Shown in pieces: positions 6,219 through 18,366 of a stretch of 25,289 bases of DNA. This DNA is from a virus: IMG/VR virus record IMGVR_UViG_3300006802_000509, positions 1 to 25,289 of that record; one strand, 5' to 3'. The first letter of the stretch is position 1, and each line of letters begins with the position of its first letter. Below the pieces are notes generated by a model. That model made no database searches. It saw nothing but the letters and a program-made list of their open reading frames with translations, and was not told the origin of the DNA. A program made the translations under genes and the position numbers.

Positions 6219-9200
6219 CTATGTGAACTCGTAGATGATGACGCAACCCTGCTGACCGGCCCCTCCTGACCTCGCGTTGTTGCCGCTCGATGCGCCGCCG
6301 CTGCCGCCCGCTCCGTAAGCATCCGCTGCGGCTGCGTTGCCTGCTGTGCCGCCAGCCGTAGTTTGCAACACGCTGCGTCCGCCGCCGCCAAACCTAGTCG
6401 AAGCGCCAGCGCCAGAGCCGACGATGGCAGCAGTCAGTCGGAGGCCATGGTCCCCTGGCTGTCCGTCGCATGCTCTCCCGTCGCCATTGGCACCTGCATT
6501 TACCGTTCCCCCCGTTCCGCCGAGGCCCCCGGCGCCGCCAAAATTGATTGTGTTCCCTGTTGCACCGGCACCGCCGCCCGTACCTCCTTTTAGCGTGAAT
6601 ATGTTTGGCGTCGTGTTGAGAAACAGAACAGTCGTATCGCCACCATTCCCGCCTGCGTTGGCTCCGGCCGCAGACGCAGCTCCACCGGCTCCCACGTTGC
6701 ATCGAATGGTTCCGTTCACCTTCGTCGATACGTAAGCAAACCCATATTCGCCTGCGCCGCCGCCGCCGCCCGCTGCCGAGGTGCTGGCCGCACCCGCGCA
6801 GCTGCCTCCTGCGCCTCCTCCGGCGATTGCCTCGATCCAAAGCCTGTTTGTCGCGCCGTCGAGGGTGACATCGACGTTTGATCCCGGTGTCGCAGTAACA
6901 ATAGTGATTTTGACGAGAGAAAACGTCGGCACCGTCCAGCCATCGGCGCGCAGATACTTGGACGATCCGCCGCCGCTGTTTGGCACAAGGCCCTTCAGCG
7001 TCGCGCTAAACAAATCAAGTCGTGCTGTCGCTTCTGTCCCGGTGAGTTCTTCGACGACACCACCGCCCGCGCTCTTGCGACCGAGAAATCTGTCTGTCGC
7101 TGAGACGTCCTGAATCTTTGCGTAAGTGACCACGCTGTTGTCGATCGTCCACGTCGCGCCGCTTGCACTGACCGTGATATCGCCTTTGTCTCCGTCGGTG
7201 ACGCCGCCGCCGCCTGTCGCCGTGATCGTCGTGCCGCTGATACTCAGTCCGGAGCCAGCGGTCAGGTAAGCCAGCTTTCCGTCGCTGTCATCCCAGAACA
7301 CGAGACGATCGGCATTGGGATCGACAGCGGATATCGTGTGATTATTCGCCGAGAGCACATCGGACGCGCCGGAACCGACGGTCGATGAGATCGTTACGTT
7401 AGTCTCAGCTGGTATTCCGTGCTGGTGGTCGCCACGCGACCACGCCGCGGACGATCCAGCAGATGGCGTCTGCCCAAAAACGAGGTTCGCGACGGTTGCG
7501 GATGCCGAAGGCACCGTCGGCTGAGATGCGTTGATCGTGATGCTGTCGTTCGTGGCATTCGTCGTGATCGTGACGTTGCTCCCCTGTACCAGCGTCAGCG
7601 TGTCGCTCGCGGCATCGGCATCGACGTCGCTCTGACCGGAAACAACGATCTTCCCGAACGCGTTAGCCGCAGCTGGCAACGTCTGCCACGAACCGTCACC
7701 ACGCAAGAACTTCGTGGTGTCGTTTGGCGCGGTAGGCACCAAGCCCTTTGCTGACGTGGAGACCACATCCAGCAGTGCCGTGACCGCGGTACCTGAGAGG
7801 TCCGTGATATTGCCGCTGCCGTCAGCGCCTTTGATCGTGCTTGGTGTCGTCGTCGCGAGCTTTACGTTGGTGATCGCGCCTGCGTCGATGTAGGTCGAGC
7901 CGATCGGCGTCACAGATGTGGATATCGCGGCACTTGCCGCTGAGGCGATTCCCGTGCGGTCACGGTGAATGAACTTGTACCAGATATCCGTTGCGTTCGG
8001 CGCCTGATCCACCACCGCGGAACTCTTGCCGCGCACGACAGCAACGAGCGTGGACTGGCTCGGCGTAAAACCCGACGAGTTCCCTCGATGAATCTCGGTC
8101 TCGAGGTACTGACGAGAACCCGCGTTGCGTGGATAGGCCCACTGCAAGCGCACACCGCCGATCGTCGGCTGATAGCTGATGCTCGACGGCACGGCGATCG
8201 GCCTCAGCCCGACCGATGGGACGCGGCCCGGCGTGACGACGAAATCAAACCAGCGAAGACGGAATCCGATCGGGTTTGCGCTGCGCAACGTGAGCGACGT
8301 GCGCCGCTCGGTTGCGCTCAGCGTGTGACGGTAGCCGACCACGGCGAATGACTGGTCAGCCGAAAACCGCATGCCGTCGGCTTCGAGGCGAATGACGTCG
8401 CCGATCTCCACGTAGGGGCGATAAAGCAGCGAGACTTCAGCGTCGGCCTTGGGATCCTTGAGGTCCGCGATGATCGCATCGGCGAGCTTTTGCGCCGATG
8501 TTCCGTCGTTGATCTCCGAGCTGCTGTCGATGCTCACGCGGCAGTAGCGTCGGCCGTACTTGGTGATCGACGTCGCGTCAGATGCGCTCTTGATAAGTCG
8601 CTTCCATTGGCGCGTGTTGTCCTCGACACCAGCGTCGCCATATTCGACGTCCACAGCGTTACGAATCTCGTCGCGCTTGATCTCAAGTGATCCATATTCG
8701 AGCACGTTTGACGACGAAAACGACGGGTCACCGGACAGCCACGTCTTCGTTCGGTCGGGCTGATACAGCGTGAGACGAAACGTCTTGCGAAAATCATCCC
8801 ACTTGTATCGACACAACCATCCGATCTGAGAGACCCACTCGCCGATCTGCCCGAGCACGTTGTTTGACGACGGCGTCGTCGTCTCATTCATCGCCCAGCC
8901 GGGTGACGCCGGTGTGTAGAGCGTCGGTGTGCCGCCGACGTAGCCGACGGTGGACGGCGCGTTGTCGTTGATGAGTTGCTGGATGTCCGTTTGCACGGCG
9001 ACGGTTGCGTTGTTGCTGCCATAAAGACGATCGATCGGCGGATTGGTCGATGTCTGGGCTGTGCGGTCAGGCTCGATCCACACGTCCTGCAGCGCGAGAC
9101 CACGATCCATGACGCGGACTGACATCACGTCGTCGGCATAGTCCACGCCTTCGATGTATCCGTCGAACACCACATCCCACACCGACTGCGACGTCGGCGT

Positions 9201-10217
9201 TGCACCGTCGGGCAGCGTTGCGGTCTCCACCACCACTCGACGGTTGAGCGCCAAGAGCGTGCCGCCAGCGTCCACGTTTGGTGCGCTCGTCGCCATGAGC
9301 GGCGCGACGTTGACCTCGTAAACGTCGCGCACGAGACTGATTCGGCACGTGGTGCCCTGGTCGTCCACGTCGTCCTGCACCTCGATGGAGCGAACGAGGT
9401 CCCACCCATAGACCGACGAGAGGTCAACGGCTGCACCCGCGGCGGTGTAGACAGTCACGCGCGCGTGAACTTGGTAGCTCAACGAGGCGTAGGTCGCTGA
9501 TGCGTCCACGCTCGATGCCGCGCGGGTGTAAATGTCTCGCACCATCTCAGCGGTTGCTGCGTATTTGAGCACAGCCACGTCGTCGAGAGTGCCGTCCCAT
9601 GTCGCGACATCAGTTGAACTCGATCCAAACCGCCATTTTGGCGAGGTCGAGCCTCCGTCAGCGTTCGTGAGGTTCGACACGACACCTGCAGCGACACCGT
9701 CCACATAAAAGCGCACGCGGTATTTCCCGGCGTTTGCCGGGTCGGCCTCTTTGACTGCGACGACGTGGTACGTCTGCCCGGCTGAAAGTGCTCCGTTCGC
9801 GGTCGCTGTCACGGTGACGCCTGCGCCGTGCTGCCATACGATCCGCGGCACGCCGTTCGCAGTCAGCAGCGATGCCAGGATGTTACCGCCTGCATAGTTG
9901 ATGATGTGATTGTTCCCGGCGGCAAACGTCGTCGCGTTGACCCAAACCGAGATTGTCCACTCGTCTAAGAGCGCGGTGGTCGATGCGCTGTCACCGTTCG
10001 CCGTCGCACGCGAGCTCGAGAATGTGCGCGATCCGGTGGTCCCAGATGGAGATGCAAACAGACCGCCGGCTGATCCAACGGTGCCAGCCGCGACGGTTGC
10101 GCTGTAGCTGCCTGCCTCGTCGATGAGCGATCCGGTCGCCTCGTCGCATCGCCACAACGCCAGAAAATCCGCAGCGCGGAACGGAATCGGCGCGTGCGGT
10201 GTCAGCAGTTCTCTCAC
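6219..10217 (-). CDS. Tail hub/fibre fusion with lectin-like N-terminus and Gly-rich tip
   Basis: GTG 10217 follows GAGGTG with four spacer bases, one base after the previous stop. Residues about 15-230 are a laminin-G/ConA-like domain (DEWTISVWVN, then YHVVAVKE, RFYVDGVAAG and DGTLDDVAVL). Residues about 245-655 look like a baseplate/hub region with alternating strands (VWDVVFDGYIEGVDY, IRNAVDVEYG). A fibronectin-III-like domain follows (about 670-770). Fibre repeats next carry TKFLRGDGSW (835-844) and SKYLRADGW (1086-1094), plus an HxH motif in RGDHQHG (928-934), which in other fibres binds metal and aids trimerisation. Residues about 1130-1332 are Gly-rich and end in GCVIIYEF, typical of polyglycine receptor-binding tips. 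The protein should contact the host surface. Hub assignment is less certain than the fibre part. Confidence 0.85.
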   Translation of the reverse strand: MRELLTPHAPIPFRAADFLALWRCDEATGSLIDEAGSYSATVAAGTVGSAGGLFASPSGTTGSRTFSSSRATANGDSASTTALLDEWTISVWVNATTFAAGNNHIINYAGGNILASLLTANGVPRIVWQHGAGVTVTATANGALSAGQTYHVVAVKEADPANAGKYRVRFYVDGVAAGVVSNLTNADGGSTSPKWRFGSSSTDVATWDGTLDDVAVLKYAATAEMVRDIYTRAASSVDASATYASLSYQVHARVTVYTAAGAAVDLSSVYGWDLVRSIEVQDDVDDQGTTCRISLVRDVYEVNVAPLMATSAPNVDAGGTLLALNRRVVVETATLPDGATPTSQSVWDVVFDGYIEGVDYADDVMSVRVMDRGLALQDVWIEPDRTAQTSTNPPIDRLYGSNNATVAVQTDIQQLINDNAPSTVGYVGGTPTLYTPASPGWAMNETTTPSSNNVLGQIGEWVSQIGWLCRYKWDDFRKTFRLTLYQPDRTKTWLSGDPSFSSSNVLEYGSLEIKRDEIRNAVDVEYGDAGVEDNTRQWKRLIKSASDATSITKYGRRYCRVSIDSSSEINDGTSAQKLADAIIADLKDPKADAEVSLLYRPYVEIGDVIRLEADGMRFSADQSFAVVGYRHTLSATERRTSLTLRSANPIGFRLRWFDFVVTPGRVPSVGLRPIAVPSSISYQPTIGGVRLQWAYPRNAGSRQYLETEIHRGNSSGFTPSQSTLVAVVRGKSSAVVDQAPNATDIWYKFIHRDRTGIASAASAAISTSVTPIGSTYIDAGAITNVKLATTTPSTIKGADGSGNITDLSGTAVTALLDVVSTSAKGLVPTAPNDTTKFLRGDGSWQTLPAAANAFGKIVVSGQSDVDADAASDTLTLVQGSNVTITTNATNDSITINASQPTVPSASATVANLVFGQTPSAGSSAAWSRGDHQHGIPAETNVTISSTVGSGASDVLSANNHTISAVDPNADRLVFWDDSDGKLAYLTAGSGLSISGTTITATGGGGVTDGDKGDITVSASGATWTIDNSVVTYAKIQDVSATDRFLGRKSAGGGVVEELTGTEATARLDLFSATLKGLVPNSGGGSSKYLRADGWTVPTFSLVKITIVTATPGSNVDVTLDGATNRLWIEAIAGGGAGGSCAGAASTSAAGGGGGAGEYGFAYVSTKVNGTIRCNVGAGGAASAAGANAGGNGGDTTVLFLNTTPNIFTLKGGTGGGAGATGNTINFGGAGGLGGTGGTVNAGANGDGRACDGQPGDHGLRLTAAIVGSGAGASTRFGGGGRSVLQTTAGGTAGNAAAADAYGAGGSGGASSGNNARSGGAGQQGCVIIYEFT

Positions 10218-11130: not shown

Positions 11131-13166
11131 TAGTTTCTGCTCCCCGGCACTGACGACGGCGGGCCACCGTAGGGCACGCCACGCTGACGCATGGTGCGGC
11201 GAATCTGCTCGAGCACGTCGGCGTTCTTCGCAGTGATATTGATCGGCCCGTTGATGATCATGGCGCCACGGCCCGCCATGTCTCGACGGTTTGGCGAGCC
11301 GCGCCCGTCGGGTTCCTCAACGAGATATTCCGTCAGACTGTAACGGAACCCTGCGGGTAGGTTGGTCAAACTCTTGGAGAAGTCTTTGAGCGCGTCGGTG
11401 TTCTCCTCGAGGGCAGGCCGCAGCATGTCGATAATGCTGGTTGGCTCTGCCATCGTTGGCATAACGCTCAAGCGAATCGCGTCGAGACCAATCATGCCCA
11501 GCACGCGGTTGATCGCGAGGATGATCCCGTCGATTGCGTTTTTCATGCCGTCGTACAGGAACTTCGTGGCGCGCGCGATCGGCAAATAGAAATACTGGTC
11601 AAGAAACACCACGATCTGAAACAGCGCGCCGGACAAGAGCTGCAGCGCAGGCGTCACGATGCCGACGATGATCGTGGAGAAGTTGATCAGCGGCTTGACA
11701 GTGTTTTGCCAGATAGCAGCAAACAACGACGTCAGCATCTCAGCGATCGACGTCAGCGCGGGTGCGAGTGAGGCGAAATATCCGCCCACCGTGCGCGCAA
11801 TATCACCGAGCAGACCCATCGCTGGGAGCAGCGCGCCGACCACAGCGCGCAAGCCATCGAACAACGGCTTGAGCGTCCCCAGCTTCGCCATGAGGTCGTC
11901 AGCCATGGGCCCGAGGATGCCGCCGAGCGCACTCCCGACCTGCCCGCCGATCTGGCCGGTGACGTCGCCCAAAGCGACCGACACAGCAGCGCCGATGGCT
12001 CCCAGGCCAGCCTGTGAAGCAAACGATCCGATGGAGCCGGAGCCCACAGCGCCGATGACGCCGGCAGCGGTAGCCCCGTCTTGTCGTGCGCGTGCCGCCT
12101 CGGCCTTGGCAAGCTCCTGTGCTTGCTCCTCAGCGTCGCGCATGACGTCGCCGAGACCCTTGAACTTTTCCGTCACGCCAGTGACCGGCTTGTCGAGGCC
12201 CTGCATCACATCGCTGAGATCGGCGATACTGCCCTCCATCTGCGCGCTGATGTTGTCGGCATCGATCATCCGCGTGAGCGTTCGTGAGATACCGATGTCG
12301 TTTGCTGCCACCTCTGCGGCCTTCGGCGTGCCTTTGTTGGTCTTTTCGAGTTCGACCTGCAGGCCTGCCTCGACAGGAATGAGAGAGATCGCTTGTTTGA
12401 GATTGTTGATCTCTTTGTTGACGCCGCTGAGCTTCGTGCCGAGTTCAGCGAGGCTGCGACTTTCATCGGCCGTCATCTGTCGGCGCTGCTCGGAGAGCGT
12501 TTGCTGAATGGCTTGGGTCTGCCTCTCGTATTCCGTGCGCTCTTTGAGCAGCTTGTCTAGCTCTTGCTCTTTTCCTGACACCTCGAGCCCCGCATGCGCC
12601 ATGACTCGCTTTTCGCCGGTGTTTCCAACGTCAACGCGCAAACCTGCGATGCGGTTTTTGATTTTCTCGAGCTCGTCAGCCGATTTTGCTGCGCGATTTG
12701 CCGCCTCTTCGGTGAGCGTCTTGAGCTTGTCGGCTGCGTCCTTGCTCGCCTTGTCTGACTCTTCTCTCACCGACGCGATCTTGCTTGCGAGTGCGGTGAA
12801 TGCTGTGACGGCGAGCGCAACACCGGCGAGCAAAGGGCCACCGGCCGCAAACGACTGCGCGAGGCCGGATGCTGCACTGACCGCACCCTGCATCTGCGGG
12901 ACTGCCGTGGAGAACGCAGCACCCATGCCGCTTGTTACCGCGCCGATCTTTGAGAATCGCTCGCCCAGGTCGCGCGCGGATCCTTGAAGTCGATGAAGCG
13001 CGCCGGCCGCTTCCTCGGCCGCCTTGCCGCTGGCTTTGATCCTCTGAGACGACGCCTCGACGCGCGCGGAGAGCTTCTCCATGCTTTCGGTCGCGCGCTT
13101 CATCGCGGCTTCCCACAGCGCCGGGTCCGCCTTCAGCTCGGCTTCGAGTGTTCCCACCACCGTCAT
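11130..13166 (-). CDS. Tape measure protein
   Basis: ATG 13166 has GGAGGCCGACAC just upstream and overlaps the preceding stop as ATGA. The 678 residues begin with a helical, charged region (KRATESMEKLSARVEASSQR), contain long coiled-coil-like segments up to about 300, and then a Gly/Ala-rich hydrophobic stretch from about 355 to 560. Hydrophobic segments include FSTIIVGIVTPALQLLSG and LFQIVVFLDQYF. This layout, and the place directly after the overlapping chaperone pair, define a tape measure, which sets tail length and is ejected with DNA. At roughly 0.15 nm per residue the tail would be near 100 nm, a general rule rather than a measurement. The C-terminal 60 residues are polar with INITAKNADVLEQIRR. 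Confidence 0.93.
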   Translation of the reverse strand: MTVVGTLEAELKADPALWEAAMKRATESMEKLSARVEASSQRIKASGKAAEEAAGALHRLQGSARDLGERFSKIGAVTSGMGAAFSTAVPQMQGAVSAASGLAQSFAAGGPLLAGVALAVTAFTALASKIASVREESDKASKDAADKLKTLTEEAANRAAKSADELEKIKNRIAGLRVDVGNTGEKRVMAHAGLEVSGKEQELDKLLKERTEYERQTQAIQQTLSEQRRQMTADESRSLAELGTKLSGVNKEINNLKQAISLIPVEAGLQVELEKTNKGTPKAAEVAANDIGISRTLTRMIDADNISAQMEGSIADLSDVMQGLDKPVTGVTEKFKGLGDVMRDAEEQAQELAKAEAARARQDGATAAGVIGAVGSGSIGSFASQAGLGAIGAAVSVALGDVTGQIGGQVGSALGGILGPMADDLMAKLGTLKPLFDGLRAVVGALLPAMGLLGDIARTVGGYFASLAPALTSIAEMLTSLFAAIWQNTVKPLINFSTIIVGIVTPALQLLSGALFQIVVFLDQYFYLPIARATKFLYDGMKNAIDGIILAINRVLGMIGLDAIRLSVMPTMAEPTSIIDMLRPALEENTDALKDFSKSLTNLPAGFRYSLTEYLVEEPDGRGSPNRRDMAGRGAMIINGPINITAKNADVLEQIRRTMRQRGVPYGGPPSSVPGSRN

Positions 13167-13684
13167 GTGTCGGCCTCCTCGAGCGCGTGCAGCCTCTCGA
13201 TCATGGCGTCGTCATCAAGCTGCAAAGCCGCGTCCCACCCTTCGGCGTCTGACGCCTCTTTCGCCTCGCGCATTTCGCGCGCTCGAGCTTTCTCTGCGGC
13301 CGGGTCGTAACCGACGGTCGGCGCCTGGGCCTCCTCCTCGCCGAGCAGCTGCCCGACGGTGACAGACTGAGAGGACCACAGGTTGATCATGGTGGCGACT
13401 TGCCACGCGACGAGCCGCGCTTGCTCGCGCTGCCTGCGCCTGCACCCTGCGACATAGGCTTCAAGCTCCACCGGCGCGAGCCGGCGAACCTCGTCCACAC
13501 TCAGCCCGTGTTCCCCTGCGAGCTCGACGAGGGAGAGCCATTCTGCGACGGGACCTGTGGTGCGGCCCCTTCGGCGTTTGGGTCGTCGTCGTCCAGCAGG
13601 CCACCGTGCCTGTAGTGCGCCTCGGCCGCCAGGAGCAGCTTTGCCTCGAGCTCGCGGAGCTTTCCCGGCTCGCGGTCGAGCCAA
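13163..13684 (-). CDS. Tail assembly chaperone, downstream frame (GT-type extension)
   Basis: This open frame of up to 173 residues overlaps the end of the first chaperone by 184 bp in the -1 frame. The first about 45 residues (Arg/Gly/Ala-rich) are codon-poor and look like a shadow. Real coding signal begins near PVAEWLSLVELAGEHGLSVD and continues through VDEVRRLAPVELEAYV, a typical second tail chaperone. It is probably made as an extension of the first chaperone through a -1 frameshift, giving about 245 residues if the shift is at 13576-13582. It lies directly before the tape measure gene, as in lambda G/GT. An independent start cannot be ruled out. Confidence 0.78.
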   Translation of the reverse strand: MARPRAGKAPRARGKAAPGGRGALQARWPAGRRRPKRRRGRTTGPVAEWLSLVELAGEHGLSVDEVRRLAPVELEAYVAGCRRRQREQARLVAWQVATMINLWSSQSVTVGQLLGEEEAQAPTVGYDPAAEKARAREMREAKEASDAEGWDAALQLDDDAMIERLHALEEADT

Positions 13685-13899
13685 CCGCAGACGCGCTTCG
13701 GTGAGACCTTGTCGTCGGCGTGGCGAAACGCAGCGGCCGCGCAGATGGCAACGGTCCCCGTGTCTCGATACAGCGTCAGCGCCTCGCGCACCGTCATTTT
13801 TCCGGGGAGGAGAGACTGCGCGACGAGAATCGCCTCGGACGTGAACTTCAGCCCACGGGTTTGTCCGCCGATGTGAATAGGAACTTCAACAACGCTCAC
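13501..13899 (-). CDS. Tail assembly chaperone, first product (G-type)
   Basis: GTG 13899 follows GAGGTGACGC (132 aa). It begins SVVEVPIHIGGQTRGLKFTSEA, the usual opening of these chaperones, followed by a helical region (GKMTVREALTLYRDTG, ICAAAAFRHADDK). Toward the end it carries an acidic DDDD and then a Ser/Gln-rich tail of 24 residues after the candidate slip site. The product is expected to coat the tape measure during tail assembly. It sits between the major tail protein and the tape measure, and its 3' end holds two heptamers suited to a -1 frameshift into the next frame. Confidence 0.87.
   Translation of the reverse strand: MSVVEVPIHIGGQTRGLKFTSEAILVAQSLLPGKMTVREALTLYRDTGTVAICAAAAFRHADDKVSPKRVCGWLDREPGKLRELEAKLLLAAEAHYRHGGLLDDDDPNAEGAAPQVPSQNGSPSSSSQGNTG
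13576..13582 (-). other. Candidate -1 slippery heptamer C CCA AAC
   Basis: In the first chaperone frame the codons CCA AAC are preceded by C, giving the X XXY YYZ pattern. A slip here would join residue 108 of the first product to 137 residues of the second frame. High third-position GC stays with the first frame up to this point and then moves to the second, so I prefer this site. Confidence 0.55.
13660..13666 (-). other. Alternative -1 slippery heptamer G GGA AAG (lambda-like)
   Basis: GGGAAAG in the frame G GGA AAG is the same heptamer as the known lambda G/GT slip site. Use here would insert about 28 residues of Arg/Gly/Ala-rich, codon-poor sequence, which makes it the less likely site despite the exact match. 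Confidence 0.4.
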
Positions 13900-14374: not shown

Positions 14375-14644
14375 CTACGTGTCGGAGGTGTGGCCGCACG
14401 ACGGGCACACCAGCGTGCTGTGCTGGGTGAGCCACGTCTCTTCATGCCCGCACGCCGGGCACGGCTTTGGGCCTGGTGCGGCCATGGCGTCGTCAGCCGG
14501 CGCCGCACTGCGCAGCCAGCGAACGGCCAGCGCGTGTTCTTCGTCCTCTTCGGCCTGCAGGCTCACCACCTGGGCTCGCCCCGCCACGATCGACGAGACG
14601 AGGTCGCGCAACATGCCGAGCGCCACGTCGTCGAGTCGCCTCAT
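14375..14644 (-). CDS. Small zinc-ribbon protein in the tail operon (89 aa)
   Basis: ATG 14644 forms an ATGA overlap with the preceding stop. The first 45 residues form a helix with a possible coil (RRLDDVALGMLRDLVSSIVAG, QAEEDEEHALAVRWL). A Pro/Ala linker follows, then a zinc-ribbon-like end: C62-P-A-C65-G-H, 14 residues, C80-P-S-C83-G-H. Four cysteines in two CPxCG knuckles strongly suggest one bound zinc. Such a protein between tail terminator and major tail protein is uncommon in textbook operons. Possible roles are a small structural tail component or a regulator of the late operon. I do not assign a function. Confidence 0.7.
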   Translation of the reverse strand: MRRLDDVALGMLRDLVSSIVAGRAQVVSLQAEEDEEHALAVRWLRSAAPADDAMAAPGPKPCPACGHEETWLTQHSTLVCPSCGHTSDT

Positions 14645-16352: not shown

Positions 16353-16633
16353 GCGTCAGCCCACACACGACGAGGATGCGTTGGCGTCACCTCGTATGGA
16401 AGCAGCGCCGACACGTCCTCGTCGGGATACGCGCGCACGTTCACGTGCCATCCCGGCAAAGCGACAGGTTCAGGCCACGCGGCCTCTGGGTCTTCGGGCG
16501 GTGTAAGTTGCTCATAGATTACGCCCAGCACGTCGAGCGAGCGAAAGCGCGGGCGCTGGTCCTCGCCCTCGCCCTCGTATAGCAGCGGCAGAGACGTAGC
16601 CTCGTCGGGGAAGCGAAGAAAAATGTCTGTCAT
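16349..16633 (-). CDS. Small hypothetical phage protein (94 aa)
   Basis: ATG 16633 overlaps the spike stop as ATGA. The product opens MTDIFLRFPDEATSLPLLYE and continues with an acidic stretch, then GWHVNVRAYPDEDVSALL and a short tail. Proteins opening in this way often follow phage fibre genes, but their role is not known to me. No membrane segment or Cys is present. Possibly a fibre assembly factor, by position only. Confidence 0.65.
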   Translation of the reverse strand: MTDIFLRFPDEATSLPLLYEGEGEDQRPRFRSLDVLGVIYEQLTPPEDPEAAWPEPVALPGWHVNVRAYPDEDVSALLPYEVTPTHPRRVWADA

Positions 16634-18366
16634 GTGGTGAGCGCCTGGATCTGATGGTTAGCGAGGCGGAAGGGATAGTAAGCGAGGCGCTCGATGGTGC
16701 CGTTTGGCCGCTCTGTTGCGCCGGCAGAAGATCCGATGACCAGTTGCGTCACCGTCGATGGCACGGTGCCAGACGTGTCGGTGCCTGTTGTCGAGCCGTT
16801 CACAGAGAAGCCAAAACTGTCAGCCTTGTATGCGCCTGCTGCCGCGACGGTCTGGTTGACGACAAACGAAGACGCGACGTTTATGGAAGCCTGGTCGGAC
16901 CCCGACGTGCGCGACGTCATCTGCGTGTTCCCGCTATTTGCCCCAAGCATGAACACGGATCGGTTGTTTATTGTGCCGTCGTCAATGCACACGAGCCGGG
17001 CGTTTCCTGACGCTGCCGGCAGGGCGTATGGCCTCGCCCGCAGCACCAACGTCCCCTCATCCGCCCTGTACCACGTCGAAAAGTTGGTCCCCGTCATGCT
17101 CGCGCTGTCCGCGCTGCGCGTGACCTGTGCCGTGGTCGTGTAGATGTAGCTGGTGGCGAAAGCGCCGGCCTCAAGCTGAGCGCCCCAGGCGTAGATACCG
17201 GAGTAGCCGTCGCCAGTGTAGCTGGGTGTCGTATTCGACAGGCTCGTCGCAACTGTCGCGAAAACGATTACGGCGATGTCTGTGTTCGTGGTAAAGGTGA
17301 ATGCAAGCCTGTGCCAGCCGTTCCCGGCGTTCGTTGACGTAGCCGATAGAGACGTGAACGGAGACGCGCCACCGGCTGTGTATGTTGATCCGACTGTCCC
17401 GCTTGTCAGGTCAATGGCAACACCAGCGACATTTGCTTCCGCTGTGTCTGATACTCGTATCTGAGCGAAAGACCTCCCAGCCGATTTCAAATAGAAAGAT
17501 GCTGTATATTGAATAGCACTAGATGCTTTCGTGACTGATTGATACGCTCTATGAGTTCCTGACTGCGTGTCTTCCACGAGTTGATCAGCGGTGACCGTGC
17601 CGTCCGGGGCAACCGTGGCGTTGGGCGTAATTGATAATCGTGATTTCGTCCACGCCGCGTTATCGATCTCCTCGCTCCTCAAAAGCAGGTTCGCCCGCTG
17701 CTCCTCCACCAGCAGGCCGAGGCTCTCACCCGTCGTCGGGTTGTGGTCGAACCGAGCCACGCCCGCAGACGCGGTGACGAGGCGCGGAATGTAGCTGGTC
17801 ACGGTCGCCGTCGTGGTGGGCGTGTAGGCCGTGGCAGCGGAGCGTTGTTCGAGTTGAGCGCCCCACACCTCCACCACGTCGCCGCTCGTCACGACGCGGA
17901 CGCCGGGAGTGCGCGTGCCAGCCGTGAGCGTCTGCGTCACCGTGTAGCGCGCCCACGTCGAGGTGATCGTCTGCGTCACCCACGTGCCGCCAGAGTGCGC
18001 GGTGATGTCCACGTTCCCCGTGCCGGTCACGCGACGTAGCCACACGCTGAACGTGTAGTCCGCAGCGATCGCCGTCACCGACTGCGTGAGCGTGCCGTTG
18101 GCCGCGCCCGCCGTGAACTCCGTAGCGGTGGAGGTGCCGCCTGGTGCCGTCTTGCCGGTGACCGGCGTGAGATTTGATACTGTCCACGTCGCGCTGTAGT
18201 CCTGGCTTCGGAGCAGCAAGTTCTCCTCCGCCTTCACCGTCGTCCCGTCGTAGTACGTCCCCGTCGTCGCCCGCGTGAAAGTGATACGCGGGTCAAGCGT
18301 CTTCGCGTTGGCGAAGTCGAGACTCAGCGACGGCTTCACGGTGGGGTACAGCGACGACAGGCCCAT
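16630..18366 (-). CDS. Head-spike-type fibre protein with two carbohydrate-binding-like repeats
   Basis: ATG 18366 follows GGAGTGTGACGC, three bases after the previous stop (578 aa). The opening SLSLDFANAKTLDPRITFTR is characteristic of phage head-spike fibre proteins. Two similar units follow: NLLLRSQDYSATWTVS... VVEVWGAQLEQRSAATAY (about 49-182) and NLLLRSEEIDNAAWTKSR... YAWGAQLEAGAFATSY (about 227-410), each a CBM/jelly-roll-like fold that begins with NLLLRS and closes with WGAQLE. A third LamG-like unit (about 440-578) ends GTIERLAYYPFRL. It should bind surface sugars. Base composition falls in the second unit, near 17450-17640, suggesting separate ancestry. Confidence 0.85.
   Translation of the reverse strand: MGLSSLYPTVKPSLSLDFANAKTLDPRITFTRATTGTYYDGTTVKAEENLLLRSQDYSATWTVSNLTPVTGKTAPGGTSTATEFTAGAANGTLTQSVTAIAADYTFSVWLRRVTGTGNVDITAHSGGTWVTQTITSTWARYTVTQTLTAGTRTPGVRVVTSGDVVEVWGAQLEQRSAATAYTPTTTATVTSYIPRLVTASAGVARFDHNPTTGESLGLLVEEQRANLLLRSEEIDNAAWTKSRLSITPNATVAPDGTVTADQLVEDTQSGTHRAYQSVTKASSAIQYTASFYLKSAGRSFAQIRVSDTAEANVAGVAIDLTSGTVGSTYTAGGASPFTSLSATSTNAGNGWHRLAFTFTTNTDIAVIVFATVATSLSNTTPSYTGDGYSGIYAWGAQLEAGAFATSYIYTTTAQVTRSADSASMTGTNFSTWYRADEGTLVLRARPYALPAASGNARLVCIDDGTINNRSVFMLGANSGNTQMTSRTSGSDQASINVASSFVVNQTVAAAGAYKADSFGFSVNGSTTGTDTSGTVPSTVTQLVIGSSAGATERPNGTIERLAYYPFRLANHQIQALTT

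Follow-up and report, generated by a model that had tools for sequence, protein, structure and literature searches.

A short and a long form of a tail-building helper protein are very probably made from two overlapping reading frames of this virus by a one-base backward slip of the ribosome, as in phage lambda. The window, i.e. the whole stretch of DNA that was analysed, comprises 25,289 bases of IMG/VR virus record IMGVR_UViG_3300006802_000509. Very likely, its frames G and T form a lambda-type pair of tail assembly chaperones, with a predicted −1 shift at the heptamer CCCAAAC giving a GT fusion. As far as sequence can tell, gene order, the relation between the frames and the relatives give good support to a −1 frameshift of the lambda type that links T to G. 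CCCAAAC is the favoured site on the basis of relatives, codon statistics and predicted fold. A second heptamer in G, GGGAAAG, which we take to be the same as the lambda site, is despite this identity probably incidental or a minor site.

Gene order and reading frames

The structural genes of the window lie on the minus strand (Table 1). G and T are two overlapping ORFs between the genes for the major tail protein and the tape measure, as expected for a lambda-type pair. In the window and in two related contigs, L003 and L002, the major tail protein gene is followed by G, then by T in the −1 frame and then by the tape-measure gene. The stop codon of T overlaps the tape-measure start by four bases, as ATGA at window positions 13163-13166 (minus strand) and as GTGA at L002 positions 7645-7648, which suggests coupled translation.

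Some other features of the region were also recorded. In the window, L003 and L002 alike, the gene immediately before that for the major tail protein encodes a small protein with two CxxC pairs, resembling a zinc ribbon. Two large ORFs of the window (6219-10217 and 16630-18366, minus strand) contain Laminin_G_3 domains, of the concanavalin A-like lectin type, and the larger one (6219-10217) also contains a glycine-rich domain.

Table 1. Location of the main features, with the evidence for each assignment. Positions refer to the window unless L003 or L002 is named.
Feature	Coordinates	Strand	Evidence
Portal		minus	Pfam Phage_portal, E 5.4e-46
Capsid		minus	Pfam Phage_capsid, E 5.5e-24
Small CxxC protein	14375-14644; L003 4403-4756; L002 6228-6497	minus (window)	Pfam matches all below cut-off
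Major tail (tube) protein, 138 aa	13908..14324	minus	phrog_1407 major tail protein, E 9.3e-11; 44% identity to L003 protein
G, frame-0 tail assembly chaperone ORF, 132 aa, GTG start, TGA stop	13501..13899	minus	ORF and translation; L003 homologue; aligned with L002 ORF
T, −1 frame open region (stop to stop), entered by predicted frameshift	13163..13885	minus	Frame scan; L003 T homologue
Tail tape-measure protein, 678 aa	11130..13166	minus	phrog_167 tail length tape measure, E 0.0011; L003 ORF after T, E 5e-7
CCCAAAC, favoured slip heptamer (C CCA AAC), G codons 107-108	13576..13582	minus	Phase; near L003 AAAAAAA; coding-frame statistics
GGGAAAG, second in-phase heptamer (G GGA AAG), G codons 79-80, probably not the functional site	13660..13666	minus	Phase

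T occupies the −1 frame of G and is open from stop to stop between 13885 and 13163; along G, this frame meets a stop at codon 4. The initial annotation had described a chaperone overlap of 184 bp. The two frames do overlap, but this length is an artefact of the ORF list, which starts T at 13684, the first start codon (TTG) in its frame after the last upstream stop. Measured from stop to stop, the overlap of T with G covers 13501-13885. A fusion made through either heptamer contains 245 amino acids, the two products differing in sequence and not in length.

T has no credible start of its own. Its independent translation, or re-initiation after the G stop, for instance at the T-frame GTG that begins at 13498, 3 nt on from the end of the G stop at 13501, is considered very unlikely. 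This GTG is preceded by no Shine-Dalgarno-like match. Moreover, the relatives do not share this start: in L003 the T frame offers its first start codon, a TTG, only 35 nt beyond the stop, again with no Shine-Dalgarno-like match, and in L002 a TTG 38 nt beyond it. No T-frame start with a Shine-Dalgarno-like sequence was found near the overlap in the window, in L003 or in L007, a third contig described below. L002 has only one, 71 nt past the G stop. Independent initiation of T, which had been put forward as the observation that would speak against frameshifting, is thus little supported.

Phase, spacing and chance occurrence of the heptamers

Both heptamers, GGGAAAG (13666-13660) and CCCAAAC (13582-13576), are in the slip frame, as the initial annotation had reported, since the second base of each starts a G codon (X XXY YYZ). 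A distance of exactly 28 codons separates them, and the intervening −1 peptide contains 7 Arg and 2 Lys in 28 residues, so that the two products would indeed differ by 28 Arg-rich residues, as had been predicted. CCCAAAC provides the slippery X XXY YYZ near the 3' end of G: counted from its second codon, the G stop is 25 codons away. For GGGAAAG this distance is 53 codons, against 8 to 25 codons for the candidate sites in the four records compared (window, L003, L002 and L007).

The presence of a heptamer is by itself weak evidence for slippage, because synonymous resampling of G codons 72-132 gave a probability of 0.26 for at least one slip-phase XXX(A/T)3Z (0.027 for at least two). Over all of G, the chances of at least one and at least two slip-phase heptamers were 0.34 and 0.054. 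A heptamer of the CCCAAAC type is expected by chance in the last 30 codons of G with P about 0.21.

The 17 ORFs tested (5,749 codons) contain only two slip-phase XXXAAAZ, namely GGGAAAG and CCCAAAC, both in G; in the other 16 ORFs, none was observed versus 3.3 expected (P 0.037). Over the four records, slip-phase XXXAAAZ occurs at 3 of 115 G-terminal codons (30 each from the window, L002 and L007, and 25 from L003) versus 1 of 12,479 other codons; the Fisher value of 3e-6 ignores amino-acid make-up and concerns a region picked after the sites had been seen. Chances by synonymous resampling were 0.206 for the window, 0.319 for L003 and 0.022 for L007, with a product of about 0.0014. L002 was left out of this product; it has no slip-phase XXXAAAZ, and its resampled chance is zero.

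These counts also bear on the proposal that slippage occurs on both heptamers, yielding two GT fusions of the same length that differ in carrying either a 28-residue helix or an Arg-rich linker. Two in-phase sites within G and none in the other 16 ORFs would fit such a double signal. However, neither of the two homologous relatives has two sites, and the −1 frame between the heptamers looks non-coding, which makes the proposal highly improbable. If it were true, the ratio of the fusions would be set by the host tRNAs, and would depend on how readily those for Lys and Asn slip.

Coding-frame statistics and RNA structure

Third-position GC was calculated in overlapping blocks of 90 bases. In the T frame it was 0.33-0.57 in the 11 blocks starting at 13899 to 13599 and 0.63-0.90 in the 12 blocks starting at 13569 to 13239. 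The upward switch near 13570 favours CCCAAAC, the later site in translation, in agreement with what the initial annotation had noted from base composition.

Codon usage was analysed as log-likelihood ratios. Between the two sites, frame 0 scored +21.4 and frame −1 scored −18.4. After CCCAAAC the scores were +1.5 for frame 0 and +2.1 for frame −1. The best free changepoint of the codon model was at 13395-13413 and not at CCCAAAC; it is later than both sites and a good fit to neither. CCCAAAC was 6.9 log units below this optimum and GGGAAAG 23.3, so that CCCAAAC ranked 16 log units above GGGAAAG. A content of at least 9 Arg plus Lys in 28 residues was found in 4 of 709 true-frame stretches versus 130 of 400 stop-free stretches of −1 by-product frames. 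Therefore, the Arg-rich stretch between the sites looks like an unused frame.

Downstream of CCCAAAC, RNA structure showed no excess over shuffled sequence (z 0.29), and that downstream of GGGAAAG was likewise no stronger than in shuffled sequence. Some tailed phages are reported to use a low-level shift that needs no stimulatory signals (PMC5009743).

Relatives of the pair

A scan of viral contigs with the capsid retrieved L002 (51% identity) and L003 (49%), the only two relatives found with a homologous G. Single queries with G, the major tail protein or the portal retrieved no relatives from the viral contigs, and scans of these with alignments of G, capsid and major tail protein gave no contig beyond those already known. 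Searches of the phage collection with G, the major tail protein and the tape measure found no relatives, nor did those of the genome contigs with G and the capsid.

The G protein of L003 is 54% identical to that of the window over residues 8-102. This frame-0 identity extends past GGGAAAG and ends just before the codons of CCCAAAC. The −1 frame product of L003 is 36% identical to the window T over 84 amino acids (E 4e-6), and the ORF that follows it is similar to the window tape measure, as listed in Table 1. The −1 frame of L003 has stops at G codons 47, 73, 78, 83 and 107. In the alignment, the equivalent of GGGAAAG is at codons 81-82, upstream of the last two of these. Therefore, a shift at the place matching GGGAAAG would meet two stops in L003. 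After codon 107, the sole slip-phase XXXYYYZ of L003 is AAAAAAA at codons 113-114, in an acidic linker. It lies within a few codons of the position of CCCAAAC, after a run of Asp shared by the two proteins.

L002 has the same frames and architecture as the window, and its G could be aligned with the window G. No canonical heptamer is present in this gene. GGGGGAA, 8 codons before the stop, comes closest; this run of five and two bases fits the motif name fivetwo of PRFect (PMC10885494), the meaning of the name being our own reading. Thus, the G/T arrangement has been kept in relatives despite divergence, with AAAAAAA in L003, and in L002 as regards the frames, with only GGGGGAA as a candidate site.

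L007 was found through an alignment of the distal tail protein, and its chaperone belongs to a different family (phrog_344, E 7.9e-5). The region 2273-2834 of this contig contains an in-phase GGGAAAC, located 13 codons ahead of the stop of its G; the −1 reading, of 67 residues, immediately precedes the tape-measure gene.

Predicted fold and family matches

An AlphaFold2 model of G, built from three sequences (mean pLDDT 60.5), places the last helix at residues 79-98, with pLDDT under 50 from residue 105. GGGAAAG falls at the start of this last predicted helix, and CCCAAAC in the disordered, low-confidence tail or linker. According to the model, a shift at GGGAAAG would cut off the last, conserved helix of G.

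Altogether, a −1 shift of the lambda kind at GGGAAAG (13666-13660) is considered quite unlikely; the resulting fusion would be without the last helix of G and would have an Arg-rich linker. The heptamer is in phase and is that of lambda; G_GGA_AAG is also among the most shift-prone heptamers in E. coli. However, the 28 codons that follow it show strongly frame-0, anti-T usage, L003 has −1 stops downstream of the matching place, a conserved predicted helix would be removed, and its 53-codon distance from the G stop is outside the range of the candidate sites in the four records.

Sequence comparison of G with Pfam and NCBIfam gave no family match, and neither G nor T matched a curated chaperone family at the family cut-off. 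The window G matched the tail protein family phrog_2115 over residues 7-93 with an E value of about 0.07-0.077, which is not significant by itself. The G of L002 matched the same family with E 1.3e-9, whereas the G of L003 had no PHROG match at E 0.05. L002 G also matched Pfam Phage_TAC_12 below the cut-off (E 0.0084). Foldseek searches with the G model in the PDB and BFVD libraries gave no match with E <= 0.001, and the search of solved structures with G returned nothing significant. Among the 50 matches listed in the viral Foldseek search, 10 bore the name of a tail assembly or tape-measure chaperone, N15 GT being one of them; the E values of these 10 all exceeded 0.1.

Comparison with known systems

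In lambda, gpG and gpGT are reported to be made at about 30:1, with the tape measure as the binding partner of G and the tail tube protein as that of T (PMC5009743). Like lambda, the window has two overlapping ORFs flanked by the genes for the major tail protein and the tape measure, with the second ORF, T, in frame −1 and a heptamer in the 3' part of G. It differs in its favoured heptamer, CCCAAAC instead of GGGAAAG, and in that its G and T lack a match to a curated chaperone family at the family cut-off.

The main difficulty for CCCAAAC is that, in E. coli, GGGAAAG slips strongly and XXXAAAC weakly. AAC is associated with poor shifting by the ribosomes of this bacterium (PMC4066793). XXXAAAC heptamers have nevertheless been proposed for tail chaperones of several phages: AAAAAAC in phiCbK and GGGAAAC in Colossus (PMC3556154), GGGAAAC in KL1 (PMC3483164), and XXXAAAC in the haloarchaeal HCTV-1 and HCTV-2 (PMC5009743). 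These systems share with the window a similar place in the gene order and AAC as the codon in the ribosomal A site, and the window differs from them in its P-site codon, CCA. A narrow literature search turned up no phage tail gene described with CCCAAAC.

Proposed mechanism and implications

In the scheme that we infer for slippage, its rate and the re-start at the tape-measure gene, most ribosomes would read G to its stop and release the 132-residue chaperone. A minority would slip back by one base on C CCA AAC (13582-13576), moving from the Pro and Asn codons to CCC AAA. The slip point would be in the flexible tail of G, just after the last helix. These ribosomes would then read the T frame to 13163, giving the 245-residue GT fusion; having terminated there, they may resume translation at the tape-measure ATG, which overlaps the T stop. 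If the roles described for lambda apply here, coating of the tape-measure protein would fall to the G part and recruitment of tail-tube subunits to the T part.

We regard the pair as an ordinary case of the known lambda G/GT mechanism in a divergent phage. It would add a divergent case to a very widespread recoding event. It also suggests that a heptamer identical to that of lambda says little about where the shift really occurs: the statistics of the frames, the stops of a relative and a domain boundary pick another heptamer here, one of the XXXAAAC type that is rated weak by E. coli data.
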